Assembly: GCF_016907475.1 (NCBI RefSeq)
Contig: NZ_JAFBCA010000001.1
Coordinates: 2,294,001-2,358,000 of the forward strand
Direction of reading: 5' to 3'
Length of the DNA: 64,000 nt
Source: Nocardioides cavernae
GTDB lineage: Bacteria; Actinomycetota; Actinomycetes; Propionibacteriales; Nocardioidaceae
Shown here: positions 40,667 to 45,773 of the stretch, in pieces
Position numbering within the stretch: position 1 is the stretch's first letter
Layout: each line of letters begins with the position of its first letter
Notes under the pieces: generated by a model
What the model saw: only the letters and a program-made list of their open reading frames with translations
What the model was told of the DNA's origin: nothing
Database searches by the model: none
Position numbers and translations under genes: made by a program

Positions 40667-40706
40667 AAAAAAGTTCTTGTCCGGGTGTATCACGCAGGGG
40701 TGTACG
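40667..40706 (+). promoter_or_regulatory. Candidate promoter of the ECF sigma operon
   Basis: An A6 run (40667-40672), rare in this GC-rich DNA, is followed by GTTCTTGTCC and GGGTGTATCACG. It lies 16-55 nt upstream of the sigma gene, where an autoregulated ECF promoter would be expected, and does not match the TANNNT leaderless pattern of other genes. No consensus was tested. Confidence 0.3.
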
Positions 40707-40721
40707 CGCACCTGTGCTGAC

Positions 40722-41333
40722 ATGGGGACAATGGTCACCATGTCAGAGGACCGAAGGACTGAGGGGCAGTCCGACCAGTCACCGTGGGACATGGCCAGTG
40801 GGGCGTTCATCGCCTGGCGTTCGGGGGACGCCGCAGCGATGGACGAGCTGGTTGCCACGATGACGCCGATCCTGTGGCACGTGGTGCGGGCATACGGGCA
40901 CGACCGCCAGACCGCCGAGGACGTGATCCAGGCGACCTGGCTCGGTTTCGTACGCCTCCACCGGACCATCGAGGACCCGCAGGCGGTCGCGTCCTGGTTG
41001 ATCACCTCAGCCAGGCGCGGCGCAGCCGCACATACCAGGGCCGCGCGACGTGCGACCCCGGTGCAGGACGAGACGCTGCACGCCGCACTCCCGGACGCGG
41101 AGTCGGCCGAGGCGCTCGCGATGCTCGACGACGAGGCGTCACGGTTGTGGGGGGCCGTGGCGACCGTCGACGAGCGCTGCCGCAAGCTGCTGAGAGTCGT
41201 GGCCTTCATGGACCGCCCCGACTACCAGTCGATCAGCCAGGACCTCGACATGCCGGTCGGGAGCATCGGGCCCACGCGGGCGCGGTGTCTGGCGAAGGTC
41301 CGGACCGCTCTGATGAAAGGAGGCGAGCGATGA
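40722..41333 (+). CDS. ECF-type RNA polymerase sigma factor
   Basis: 203 aa from ATG 40722 (40731 and 40740 are also possible starts). Region 2 reads DAAAMDELVATMTPILWHVVRAYGHDRQTAEDVIQATWLGF; a variable linker follows; region 4 reads VDERCRKLLRVVAFMDRPDYQSISQDLDMPVGSIGPTRARCLAKVRTAL (HTH). No region 1 or 3, so ECF class. The partner at 41330 overlaps by 4 nt with a strong AAAGGAGG. Its place next to S8 and TPR-CHAT proteases suggests a protease-gated sigma factor (inference). Confidence 0.9.
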   Translation: MGTMVTMSEDRRTEGQSDQSPWDMASGAFIAWRSGDAAAMDELVATMTPILWHVVRAYGHDRQTAEDVIQATWLGFVRLHRTIEDPQAVASWLITSARRGAAAHTRAARRATPVQDETLHAALPDAESAEALAMLDDEASRLWGAVATVDERCRKLLRVVAFMDRPDYQSISQDLDMPVGSIGPTRARCLAKVRTALMKGGER

Positions 41334-41788
41334 CTGATGGGGACGCCGCTCTCCTCGAGGAACTGCGTGACATGTGGATGACCTATGACCCGCCGCCGCC
41401 CGGCCTCGTCGCGACGATGATCGCTGCCGTCGCTGCCGCCGACCTCGACGCGGAATGGGAGATGCTCACCCTCGTCCGCGACTCGCGCGACGAGCCCGCT
41501 GCCCAGGTGAGGGGACTCGCCACTTCGCGCATCCTCTACTTCACCGCCGCAGAGGGCTGGTCGCTCGACGCCGAGCTCGACGACGGCCAGGTCCGTGGAC
41601 AGCTGCTCGACTTCGACGGTGACATGGGGGCCGTCGAGATCGTGGTCGATACGACCGACGGGCAGAGCTGGACCACCGCGCTCGACGAGGTGGGTTTCTT
41701 CACCCTCGGCGCCGAGCCGACCGGATCCGTGCGCTTCACGGTGCGCGACAGCGGCCGGTCGGCGACCAGTCGCTGGATCGAGCTCTGA
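41330..41788 (+). CDS. Sigma-factor partner protein, possible non-classical anti-sigma factor
   Basis: 152 aa, coupled to the sigma gene (ATGA overlap, AAAGGAGG). Residues 1-60 are helical (ALLEELRDMWMTYDPPPPGLVATMIAAVAAADLDAEWEML), residues 62-152 are predicted beta-rich (RILYFTAAEGWSLDAELDDGQVRGQLLDFDG..VRFTVRDSGRSATSRWIEL). There are no cysteines, so not a zinc anti-sigma (ZAS), and no membrane segment. I recall similar helix-plus-beta proteins beside such ECF genes in actinobacteria. Function is inferred from context. Confidence 0.7.
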   Translation: MTDGDAALLEELRDMWMTYDPPPPGLVATMIAAVAAADLDAEWEMLTLVRDSRDEPAAQVRGLATSRILYFTAAEGWSLDAELDDGQVRGQLLDFDGDMGAVEIVVDTTDGQSWTTALDEVGFFTLGAEPTGSVRFTVRDSGRSATSRWIEL

Positions 41789-41824
41789 CCTCGTTCGATC
41801 CTGACGCCGGCCCTGCCCTTCCCC

Positions 41825-43108
41825 TCAGGGGCCGGGGTAGGGCTGGCGCAGCTCCTGGTGGGGGCCGATCGTCGGGTCGGAGTCGTACACCGACCTGGCG
41901 AGCACGGCGTCGCGCGCGTCACGTGCCGACACGCCCGTCTCGCTGATCTCCCGGGCGATGAGGCCGGCCACGACCGGAGCGGAGAACGAGGTGCCGCTCC
42001 ACCGCGCCATCCCCGTGGTGAAGACCCGGACGTCACCCTTGTTCGGTGTCTCGTGGCACTCGAAGGTCCCGTCGGGGAAGGCGTTGACCACGTTGCGGCC
42101 CAGCGCGTAGACGTCGGCGGACACGCCGAAGTTGGAGAAGCTGGAGACGCGCCCGTCCCGGTCGAGGGAGCCGACGCCGACGCACCAGTCGAAGGCGGCG
42201 GGCCAGAAGGGGGCCGCCCAGGAGTCGTTGCCGGCAGCGGCGACGAGCACGCAGTCGCGCTCCTTGAGGTGCTTGTGGTGGAACTTCCGCATCGCGATCG
42301 AGGGCCGGTCGCGCCGGGTGCGGCAGCCGGCCGAGAGGTTGATGACCTGCGGGTCGTGCCGGAGCGCCTCCTCGAGCTGCACGACGAGGTCGGACTCCAG
42401 GATCCCGCCGCCACCGACACCACCGATCGCGAAACCCTCCACGTAGACATTCGTCTCCGGGGCGACGCACCGCACGACCCCGGCGATGAACGTGCCGTGG
42501 CCGGCGTACGGACGCAGGTCGGGGCCGTTGAGCTCGTCGTCGCCCTTCACGCCCTTGAGCCACGGGGTGCGGGGGTCGGTCGCGGCCGGCGGGTGCCAGC
42601 CGGTGTCGACCACGACGACGCTGACCTCGCGGCCCTTCTCCAGCGGCGCGACCGGCGGCCACGGCTCGGTGAGGCCGGTCTCCTGGGCTTCGATCGCCGG
42701 GCACATGCTGCCTCCGCCGCCGCCGGGGGAGACGTGCACCCAGTGGTCGGGTGACGCGGCACCGCGCGGCAGGCCGTTGTCCTCGAGGAGGTCGAGCACC
42801 TCGGGCACCGACTGTCCGTCACGACGCTCGGGCAGGACGTAGCGGACGACCTCGCCGTCGAGCAGATTGACGTCGTCGCGACGCAGCTCGCCGGTCAGGA
42901 TCCGATCGCCCACCTGGGCCACGAGGCGCTCGAACGCCTCGACGTCCTCGACGCCCACCAGGACCCGGTCGGGATGGAAGACGTACGTGAAGTCGGCGGG
43001 GGCCAGCGTGTCCCACGCGACCTCACCGTCGTTGGCCTTCTGGAAGGCGCGGATCTGGTCGGTGGTACGTCGTCGTCGGTCGTCGCCGATCTTCCAGTCA
43101 CCTGACAT
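41825..43108 (-). CDS. Cytoplasmic subtilisin-like (S8) serine protease
   Basis: 427 aa with no signal peptide. Complete catalytic set: Asp168 (VSVVVVDTGWH), His204 (AGHGTFIAGV), oxyanion Asn294 (AAAGNDS) and Ser374 (WSGTSFSAPVVAG). Residues 1-140 are a distinct N-domain (VAWDTLAPADFTYVFHPDRVLV..) that may act as an intramolecular inhibitor or sensor, ending in a Gly5 linker. Leaderless ATG. Its start faces the TPR-CHAT gene and its stop faces the sigma operon. Confidence 0.88.
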   Translation of the reverse strand: MSGDWKIGDDRRRRTTDQIRAFQKANDGEVAWDTLAPADFTYVFHPDRVLVGVEDVEAFERLVAQVGDRILTGELRRDDVNLLDGEVVRYVLPERRDGQSVPEVLDLLEDNGLPRGAASPDHWVHVSPGGGGGSMCPAIEAQETGLTEPWPPVAPLEKGREVSVVVVDTGWHPPAATDPRTPWLKGVKGDDELNGPDLRPYAGHGTFIAGVVRCVAPETNVYVEGFAIGGVGGGGILESDLVVQLEEALRHDPQVINLSAGCRTRRDRPSIAMRKFHHKHLKERDCVLVAAAGNDSWAAPFWPAAFDWCVGVGSLDRDGRVSSFSNFGVSADVYALGRNVVNAFPDGTFECHETPNKGDVRVFTTGMARWSGTSFSAPVVAGLIAREISETGVSARDARDAVLARSVYDSDPTIGPHQELRQPYPGP

Positions 43109-43114
43109 GGTCCG

Positions 43115-43120
43115 ACGCTA
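43115..43120 (-). promoter_or_regulatory. -10 element (TAGCGT, minus strand) of leaderless S8 protease gene
   Basis: On the minus strand TAGCGT, 6 nt (CGGACC), ATG at 43108. Confidence 0.6.
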
Positions 43121-43187
43121 GCGTCGTCGGGGTCCCGGGCCGAGGGGTTCTCGAGAGATTTCCGCGCGGATCCGCGAGGATGGACCC

Positions 43188-45773
43188 GTGGATCGGGACG
43201 AGGCGGAGGAGCTGCTCCGCACCCTGTTCGCCGATCCCGGAGCCGCTCGGGCCACGGCCGAGGCCGTCCTCGTCACCGACGACGACCCGGCGGTCTCGTC
43301 GATAGGCCACCAGATCATCGGCATCGTGCTCCGCGACCTCGGCCACGCCGATGTCGCACTCCACGAGCTGCGGACGGCCCTGCGCCTGGCCAGGCGATCG
43401 GGCGACACCGCCCGCGCCGGCGACGTGCTGGCCACGCTCGGCGCGTCCCTCTGCCTCGGCGGCCGGACCACCGAGGGGCTCCGCCTGCTCGGCGAGGCCG
43501 AGGCCGCGCTGCACGGCGTCCCGCTCGGGCGCATGCTGGTGCGTAGGGCCCTCGTGCTGGGCCATCTGCTCGCGCGCTTCGAGGACAGCGCGTCAGACCT
43601 GCGGCGGGCACGTGAGCTGTTCGCCGGCAGTGGGGACCACGTCTGGGAGGCGCGAGCACTCAACCTGCAGGGCCTCGTCGACGTCAACCAGGGCGACATC
43701 GAGTCGGCGGAGCGGGCCTTCGCGGAGTACGGCGTGCTGGCCGCCGAGGTCGGCGACGGGGAGGCCGTCGCGGTCAGCGTCCACAACCGCGGCTGGCTCG
43801 CCTTCGTGCGCGGTGACCTGCCGGAGGCGATGGAGCGATTCGCCGACGCGGCGGCTCGCTTCGAGGGGCTGGGCGTCACCAACGTGGACCTCGTCTTCGA
43901 CCAGGCGTCCGCCTACCTGGCCGGGGGTCTCGCCGAGGACGCCGTCGCCATCGTCGAGGCGGCCCTCGTCGCTCGCCCCCTGCAGGGTCGCGAACGTGCC
44001 GACCTGCTGATCGGGGTCGCGGAGGCCGCCCTCGCGGCCGGTGACTCGCGGCGGGCGATGTCCGCCGCCGACGAGGGCGCGGCGATGCTGCGCGCCCAGG
44101 CGAGGCCCGTTCACCGGCTGGAGGCGGAGCTGCTGTCGATCACCGCCCGAGACCGGGCGGGCCAGCAGCCCGGCCCGCTCCTGCGCCGGGCGGAGCGCGT
44201 CGTGGCCGGCCTGCGGGACGCTCGTGCCCCCCAGCTGCCGCACGCGCTCCTGCTGGGTGCCGGGCTGGCGAGCCGCGTCCGGTCGGCTCGTGCGGCCGGG
44301 CTCGCGTCCGACTGGCTCGCCGAGGCGGCGTCCTTCCGGCAGGCCCCCACCGGCGCCGTCCGAGCGCTCGGCTGGTTCGCCCAGGCACGAGCCCGCGACC
44401 TGCTCGGGGACTCCGGCGGCGTGCTGCGTGCGTGCGAGCTCGGTCTGCGCGCGCTCGACGAGCACCGTGCGACCCTCGGGAGCCAGGAGCTACGGGCCGG
44501 GTCGGCCGGGCACGGCGCGGCGCTCGCCGAGCTGGGCACACGCACCGCGATGGCCAGCGGCGACGCCAGGCAGCTGCTGCGGTGGTCCGAGCGGTGGCGG
44601 GCGACCGCCCTCTCGACGCCGGCCAGGAGCGCGGGCCACGATGAGGAGACCGCTGCCGACCTCACAGCGCTCCGGGCCCAGCGCCGACGGCTGGACGAGG
44701 CCCGCTCGGAGGGCGCACCCACCGACGCGCTGGAGGCGCGGGCGACGCGGCTCGAGCAGACGGTGCGCCGCCGGTTGCTGCAGGAGCGGGGTTCGGGCGA
44801 GGCGGCCGCGACCCTCGACGTCGAGCCCCTGCTCGCGGCGCTCACCGAGGACGACACGGTCCTCGTCGAGCTGACCGAGCTCGACGGCGTCCTGCACGCG
44901 CTCGTGGCGGGTCGCGGGCGCGTACGCCACCGGGTGGTCGGCGATGCCGCTGCCGCTGCCGCTGCCGTGGATTTCTCGTTGTTCACCCTGCGCCAGGCCG
45001 CTCGCGGGCGCCGGGCCCAGCTCGAGGTGGCCGGCGGCCGGCTCGAGCGCGCGCTGCTCGGGGCCGCGCTGGACGGCCTGGGGGAGCAGCGTGTCGTGGT
45101 CTGCGCACCCGCAGCGCTGCAAGGCGTCCCCTGGGGCCTGCTCCCGTCCCTGGCGCACGGACCCGTGACCGGCACGCCGTCGGCGCGGTTGTGGCTACGG
45201 GCCCGGACGTCCGCGCCGGCGGACGACCGTCGGGTGATGCTCGTCGGGCCGGGGCTCGGCAGCGGTGGCGCAGAGGTCCCGGCGGTGGCGGCCGAGGACC
45301 CGCGGGCAGAGGTGCTCGACGGCGAGGCGGCGACCGTGTCGGCCGCGCTCGCGGCGCTGGACGGGGTCGCGCTGGCGCACGTCGCCGCCCACGGTCACTT
45401 CCGCGAGGACAGCCCGCTCTTCTCCTCGCTCACCCTCGCCGACGGGCCCCTGCTCGTGCACGACCTCCAGGGCTTGGGGCGCCCGCCCCACCGGGTCGTG
45501 CTGTCGGCCTGCGAGTCGGGCGTCATGCAGCCGGTCGGCGACCAGGAGCTCCTCGGCCTGGCGGCCGCGCTACTGTCCATGGGCACCGCCGGGGTGGTCT
45601 CGAGCCTCGCCGAGGTCGACGACGCCGCGACCGTCGACGTGATGGTCGCCCTCCACGCCCGGCTCCGGCAGGGAGGCGGGCTCGGCGACGCGATGCTCGC
45701 GGCTCGCGAGGCCGCGGCGGGTGACTCCGTGCTGGCCGCGACCGCCGCGTCGTTCACCGTGCTCGGGATCTGA
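43188..45773 (+). CDS. TPR-CHAT caspase-like protease
   Basis: 861 aa. Residues about 15-480 are TPR-type helical repeats (ALHELRTALRLARRSGDTARAGDVLATLGASL, NLQGLVDVNQGDIESAERAFAEYG, NRGWLAFVRGDLPEAMERFADAAARFEGLG). A coiled-coil-like stretch follows (LRAQRRRLDEARSEG.., 490-520). Residues about 540-861 are a CHAT domain with the dyad His735 (VAAHGHF) and Cys775 (VVLSACESG) and the family end motif GTAGVVSSLAEVDD. No signal peptide. The GTG start follows GAGGAT-6nt, so it is leaderless, or GAGGA acts as a ribosome-binding site. Divergent from the S8 gene. Confidence 0.9.
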   Translation: MDRDEAEELLRTLFADPGAARATAEAVLVTDDDPAVSSIGHQIIGIVLRDLGHADVALHELRTALRLARRSGDTARAGDVLATLGASLCLGGRTTEGLRLLGEAEAALHGVPLGRMLVRRALVLGHLLARFEDSASDLRRARELFAGSGDHVWEARALNLQGLVDVNQGDIESAERAFAEYGVLAAEVGDGEAVAVSVHNRGWLAFVRGDLPEAMERFADAAARFEGLGVTNVDLVFDQASAYLAGGLAEDAVAIVEAALVARPLQGRERADLLIGVAEAALAAGDSRRAMSAADEGAAMLRAQARPVHRLEAELLSITARDRAGQQPGPLLRRAERVVAGLRDARAPQLPHALLLGAGLASRVRSARAAGLASDWLAEAASFRQAPTGAVRALGWFAQARARDLLGDSGGVLRACELGLRALDEHRATLGSQELRAGSAGHGAALAELGTRTAMASGDARQLLRWSERWRATALSTPARSAGHDEETAADLTALRAQRRRLDEARSEGAPTDALEARATRLEQTVRRRLLQERGSGEAAATLDVEPLLAALTEDDTVLVELTELDGVLHALVAGRGRVRHRVVGDAAAAAAAVDFSLFTLRQAARGRRAQLEVAGGRLERALLGAALDGLGEQRVVVCAPAALQGVPWGLLPSLAHGPVTGTPSARLWLRARTSAPADDRRVMLVGPGLGSGGAEVPAVAAEDPRAEVLDGEAATVSAALAALDGVALAHVAAHGHFREDSPLFSSLTLADGPLLVHDLQGLGRPPHRVVLSACESGVMQPVGDQELLGLAAALLSMGTAGVVSSLAEVDDAATVDVMVALHARLRQGGGLGDAMLAAREAAAGDSVLAATAASFTVLGI

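Follow-up and report, generated by a model that had tools for sequence, protein, structure and literature searches.

The window analysed here, 64,000 nucleotides of Nocardioides cavernae (contig NZ_JAFBCA010000001.1, positions 2,294,001 to 2,358,000), carries an island of four genes that encode a sigma factor of the extracytoplasmic function (ECF) type, a partner protein of 152 residues, an S8 subtilase and a TPR-CHAT cysteine protease. We propose, with moderate confidence, that this island is a protease-gated sigma switch, in which the partner is cut by the CHAT protease and/or the S8 protease and the sigma factor thereby released drives its own operon and a small RNA. By computation we find a recurrent module, a sigma gene coupled to its partner gene, a conserved partner arginine (Arg61), intact protease active sites, a promoter motif ahead of the sigma gene and an RNA that is preceded by the same motif. 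In the proposed mechanism, a soluble anti-sigma partner would hold the sigma factor through its N-terminal helices and dock to the proteases through its beta-sandwich. A signal, presumably sensed by the TPR part, would activate the TPR-CHAT protein; CHAT, S8, or CHAT via S8 would then cut the linker of the partner, probably at Arg61. The freed sigma factor would transcribe from TGTATCA-N16-C(A/T)CC promoters, namely the one ahead of the sigma and partner genes and, in some members of the window's Nocardioides clade, that of a two-hairpin RNA of about 75 nucleotides encoded elsewhere in the genome.

The sigma gene (40722..41333, plus strand, 203 residues) is recognised by profile matches (TIGR02937 sigma70-ECF at 3e-16, above cut-off and the best model match; Sigma70_r2 at 1.8e-9) and is conserved beside CHAT. 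Its stop codon TGA overlaps by four bases with the start codon ATG of the partner gene (41330..41788, plus strand), the proposed anti-sigma factor and protease substrate. The S8 gene lies on the minus strand (41825..43108, 427 residues), and its product belongs to the PF00082 subtilases (1.1e-23, 84.4 bits against a cut-off of 21.8) with the Asp/His/Ser triad present; a region of about 155 residues precedes the catalytic domain, and in the N-terminus, MSGDWKIGDDRRRR, no signal peptide is seen by eye. The TPR-CHAT gene (43188..45773, plus strand, 861 residues) encodes a member of the PF12770 CHAT protease family (3.3e-24, 86.3 bits against a cut-off of 24; TPR_12 at 2.8e-8) with catalytic His735 (codon 45390..45392, plus strand) and Cys775 (codon 45510..45512, plus strand). 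Aligned with 57 relatives, both residues are invariant (58/58), as are Asp168, His204, Asn294 and Ser374 in the corresponding S8 alignment (58/58). The original prediction, made from the letters of the window, had placed these four reading frames here, with an intact His735/Cys775 pair and an S8 protease devoid of a signal peptide, and each of these statements holds, the last as judged by eye.

Co-occurrence of the four genes had been set beforehand as a test of that prediction, and it proved common across Actinomycetota, in several orders. A survey of 196 genomes of the same order (105 CHAT places kept, down to E 4e-28, with second fragments of split matches and weaker rows dropped) gave matches to the partner in 72 genomes, to CHAT in 100, to S8 in at least 120 and to sigma in at least 151. 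Within 10 kilobases (kb) of the 105 CHAT places we find sigma at no fewer than 100, the partner at 78, S8 at 92 or more and all three at 70 or more, the S8 and sigma counts being lower bounds as their rows are incomplete at the weak end; 78 of 83 partner matches lie at most 10 kb from a kept CHAT place. The 70 complete sets, with sigma, partner and S8 all near CHAT, show six gene orders, of which S8< CHAT> sig> par> (24), sig> par> S8< CHAT> (20) and sig> par> CHAT< S8> (15) are the commonest. A seventh order, which begins with S8 and has CHAT divergent from it, accounts for 31 of the 80 loci kept from a CHAT search of named genomes, which found at least 509 relatives. These 80 loci, from Nocardioides, Kribbella, Streptomyces, Nonomuraea, Actinoplanes, Planomonospora, Actinomadura and other genera, hold S8 in 78 cases, the partner in 75 and sigma in 71, and some of the loci that lack a gene are short or contig-end stretches; several of the 80 are of one species. 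Since the set is kept while its order changes, we argue for a functional link between its members; the clustering recurs far too often for chance, as judged from recurrence itself and not from a chance model.

The island set comprises 60 fetched stretches plus the window, partly of the same species, and distinct-protein counts were made separately. It contains 58 sigma genes, each followed by a gene of partner size (58/58), which was picked at 130-180 residues with a four-base overlap favoured where one existed; 47 of the 58 loci allow such an overlap. The 58 products can be aligned together as a single family, even where BLAST gave no match. Stretches that bear CHAT and stretches that bear S8 are identical sets of 58 each, three of them without sigma. 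Two loci (L156 and L157) have a single sigma but CHAT and S8 in duplicate and the partner in two or three copies, and the partner therefore goes with the proteases too, as would be expected of a linker between proteases and sigma. Its coupling to the sigma gene is of the kind seen with anti-sigma factors, and as such a factor it would bind and inhibit sigma.

An AlphaFold2 model helps to divide the partner into parts. Residues 3-37 (41336..41440, plus strand) are modelled as two helices (3-19 and 26-37) and would form the sigma-binding part; residues 42-64 (41453..41521, plus strand), with E44, L48 and the invariant R61, make up a linker with a predicted local distance difference test score (pLDDT) below 50; residues 65-152 (41522..41785, plus strand) adopt an Ig-like beta-sandwich with a weak match to PF13620 CarboxypepD_reg (18 bits, below the cut-off of 32.3). 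By eye, the protein has no membrane segment. Compared with solved structures by sequence, it gave no match below E 0.06, and a structure search gave generic beta-sandwiches among the matches listed; Csx30 and CalpT are absent from the 50 rows listed, an absence that excludes nothing. Arg61 (codon 41510..41512, plus strand), which its conservation marks out as a proposed cut site or contact, is found in 58 of 58 island partners, 230 of 230 members of a database set and 74 of 75 members of a third set, the window counted in each, with the invariance limited by the fact that the 229 database partners are among the best matches listed and largely Nocardioides-like. The earlier suggestion that the partner acts as an anti-sigma factor and is cleaved by a protease thus gains indirect support, from its coupling to sigma in 58 of 58 cases, its invariant linker arginine and its duplication with CHAT and S8 in two loci; it is predicted to bind sigma. 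An acidic pocket of CHAT was also considered as a sign of arginine specificity and rejected: position 809 is Glu or Asp in just 25 of 58 sequences, and Asp812 (56/58), presumably a general feature of CHAT, gives no support either.

In the DNA upstream of sigma in 12 Nocardioides, GTATCA-N16-C(A/T)CCT(G/C)-N7-ATG is kept and the remainder drifts. The window carries an exact match, the putative sigma-operon promoter GTATCA-N16-CACCTG (40687..40714, plus strand), which ends seven bases ahead of the sigma ATG, and the transcript would be leaderless if the promoter is real. The strict motif precedes 39 of 129 sigma loci (shuffled mean 0.00), 0 of 138 CHATs, 1 of 135 S8s and 0 of 132 partners; among distinct proteins the counts are 31/118, 0/128, 1/125 and 0/122, respectively. 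This distribution leads us to infer that the motif is one that the sigma factor would itself use. The S8 and CHAT genes are divergent, with 79 bases between their starts (43109-43187), and the idea that this gap places both under joint control of the sigma factor is not supported by the counts at distinct CHATs and S8s; the only conserved elements seen there, by eye, are -10-like boxes. The window genome has four strict-motif sites, namely those of sigma, of the small RNA and of two further places (L143 and L145). A larger sigma regulon was considered and rejected, as the sites at L143 and L145 have no suitable start nearby. Sites of a looser pattern number 6 versus 2 in reversed controls in six Nocardioides genomes, and 13 versus 8 in twelve more distant genomes, so that in the latter single far-off sites mean little.

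The two-hairpin RNA (G000:C1:3301614-3301691, outside the window) is preceded by a sigma-type site away from sigma that is conserved between Nocardioides species, and genome G146 has two copies in tandem. Across 11 copies, 6 of 18 predicted pairs have changed on both sides with pairing kept. Rfam gave no match, and by this comparison alone the RNA is new; we regard it as a candidate sigma target. A model of the RNA from which the promoter was left out detected it in eight of the 118 Nocardioides genomes searched, five of them new to the model, and each of the eight has a TGTATCA whose start lies 30 bases ahead of the RNA. These eight genomes also all have a close sigma (83-100% identity), and among the 14 of 110 RNA-negative genomes that were checked for sigma, three have a close one, six only a distant one and five none (E 1e-50). 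This association (8/8 versus 3/14) has a Fisher p of 5e-4, not corrected for kinship. All eight positive genomes have a CCCCAGGGGTG-like box on the upstream side of the -35 element of the RNA, and small-RNA loci are listed as L262, L263, L266, L267, L269 and L275-L279.

Several observations weigh against a switch of this kind. The strict promoter form is lacking in 87 of 118 distinct sigmas, and 30 of the 31 that bear it are from Nocardioides, L115 being the exception. The RNA was located in 6 of 12 followed genomes with a close island (G000, G032, G128, G130, G146 and G148), and a close sigma is present in three RNA-negative genomes within a check of 14 of the 110 negatives. Apart from the narrow make-up of the database set, one partner (L237) has His instead of Arg at position 61, and Arg61 could instead be a sigma contact. 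A phylum-wide search with a partner-only profile matched 60 of 396 genomes, and CHAT and S8 are present at 16 of 20 loci fetched from among these, mostly strong matches, which agrees with the module; the other four (L159, L160, L169 and L173), which count against it, have no CHAT or S8 within the stretch taken. The sigma-partner pair is separate from the S8-CHAT pair in G126 (by about 880 kb) and in G012 and G042 (on different contigs), so that, judging from this layout, the two halves would act in trans there or have parted.

The ECF54 group of sigma factors and its gene neighbourhood reportedly go back to Casas-Pastor 2021 and Huang 2015. A 2022 review (PMC8999054) gives the ECF54 neighbourhood as 'carboxypeptidase, subtilase and CHAT' genes and places the group among mechanisms found mainly in Actinobacteria. 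It also relays a proposal that counts further against our reading, according to which the system is held off through degradation of the sigma factor by the proteases, with no anti-sigma factor taking part. The gene neighbourhood is thus already known as ECF54 context, and its novelty is not supported. That review alone turned up in our literature search on this gene set, the coverage of subscription papers being mostly lacking, and the text of Kaur 2020 (PMC7159879) contains neither 'sigma' nor 'CHAT'. The window island has the CHAT and subtilase genes of the published wording, with a carboxypeptidase-type domain present only as the sub-threshold CarboxypepD_reg match, and on gene context alone its sigma factor is probably an ECF54 member. 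If the proteases degrade sigma, the partner would serve as an adaptor, delivering sigma to CHAT or S8, a role that we add here and with which its coupling to sigma and its duplication alongside the proteases agree. Such an adaptor does not, however, predict an invariant arginine in a disordered linker. The review moreover counts the 'carboxypeptidase' as a protease, whereas the post-sigma gene yields a sub-threshold domain match, a beta-sandwich model and no enzyme match; the name is best read as a likely misreading of what the model suggests to be a non-enzymatic beta-sandwich partner. We consider it unlikely that the published mechanism applies.

A protease cascade, in which CHAT activates S8 by cutting its N-terminal region and S8, not CHAT, cuts the partner, would fit the presence of S8 in all 58 CHAT-bearing island stretches, including the three without sigma, and the long N-terminal region of S8, where sister clades have conserved hexapeptide arrays. 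A SAVED-CHAT cascade with a sigma regulator as its final target is known, and we regard a cascade in this island as unlikely. It is very unlikely, in our view, that the island is a phage-defence module whose sigma factor switches on an antiviral programme. The analogy with the Csx29/Csx30/CASP-sigma system linked to clustered regularly interspaced short palindromic repeats (CRISPR) and with CalpL/CalpT/CalpS would favour such a role, and S8 scores with the PADLOC models for subtilase (1e-10) and IetS (9e-7), as CHAT does with BovA (0.012). These matches are, however, confined to the peptidase domains, PADLOC has no match for sigma or partner, a search of viral contigs gave a single match of 19 residues, and the small RNA is the sole candidate output found. 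The island follows dxr, an M50 protease gene, gcpE and a GNAT gene; the GNAT gene adjoins sigma in 11 of 11 close relatives, M50 and gcpE lie beside sigma in 10 of 11, and these fixed neighbours on the core chromosome speak for a resident response over a mobile defence island. Pfam named five of eight neighbouring reading frames, none of them Cas, and left three unmatched, no search having been aimed at a CRISPR array or Cas7-11. Altogether, the original prediction is supported in part: its four-gene module stands, novelty of the neighbourhood and joint sigma control through the S8/CHAT gap are not supported, and a role in infection has little support.

Some features of related loci touch on the same genes. 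Clades other than the RNA-bearing Nocardioides may have other sigma targets. A 101-residue protein of no assigned family lies directly behind CHAT in G163 (L303 1560-1862; the same place as L117) with a sigma-type promoter of its own, and has homologues in L106, L107 and L116; a chagasin-type inhibitor was considered from likeness by eye, for which Pfam gave no support. A small conserved protein without a Pfam match is divergent from sigma in G106 and G142 (L305, L296), with a sigma-type promoter in two loci and homologues in about ten further ones. Tandem hexapeptide arrays (e.g., NPYATG, PFTRGA, HPITGG, PYYAGV) precede the catalytic domain in 22 of 58 S8s (L103-L117, L119, L137-L142) as 3-13 exact copies, and the window S8 has none. 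A given protein nearly always repeats one and the same unit, but the unit changes from species to species; at the DNA level the copies show synonymous differences (pS 0.55, pN 0.014, the latter lowered by the selection of exact repeats). The CHAT matches in G058 and G103 contain one in-frame TGA each, within the match or its frame, and by sequence the window CHAT found one weak TPR match among solved structures.

It is possible, and we put it forward tentatively, that the island represents a CRISPR-free pathway from protease to RNA, in which a TPR-CHAT protein and a dedicated subtilase cut a soluble anti-sigma factor at a near-universal arginine and the main Nocardioides output is one small regulatory RNA. 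In the literature found, CHAT proteases acting on sigma regulators are a CRISPR feature, and the present module is chromosomal; if such a pathway exists, chromosomal modules of this type could have supplied the parts for CRISPR-linked CHAT/sigma systems. For ECF54, PMC8999054 cites only a proposal as to mechanism, and the 'carboxypeptidase' of its neighbourhood is given a different reading here. The neighbourhood itself being in print, what is newly proposed here is the lock, its cutting site and the promoter and RNA output. A module found in Nocardioides, Kribbella, Streptomyces, Nonomuraea, Actinoplanes and others is thereby given a concrete proposed substrate, cut site, promoter and RNA output.

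RseA and RsiW are membrane proteins and differ in this from the window partner, which by eye has no membrane segment; they resemble what we propose for it in that an ECF sigma is set free when its anti-sigma factor is cleaved. Their proteolysis is mentioned in PMC10028731. With ECF54, as outlined in PMC8999054, the island shares an ECF sigma gene that neighbours genes for a subtilase, a CHAT protein and a 'carboxypeptidase', and it departs from that outline in a probably non-enzymatic partner with a likely cut site and in the proposed promoter and RNA output. In type III-E CRISPR, Csx30 inhibits a sigma factor and is cut by Csx29 (PMC10028731), and this system has in common with the island a TPR-CHAT protease, a partner and an ECF sigma; the island differs by its S8 protease and by a partner of 152 instead of 565 residues, and its CHAT protein scores 26.3 bits with the NCBIfam Csx29 model, well below the cut-off of 300. 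In CalpL/CalpT/CalpS, the target of the protease is an anti-sigma factor in complex with an ECF sigma (PMC11417357), and that protease, unlike those of the island, is Lon-type with a SAVED sensor, with neither CHAT nor S8. By analogy, the best reading is that the window module works like Csx29/Csx30/CASP-sigma and CalpL/T/S, a likeness of function that does not amount to membership in either.

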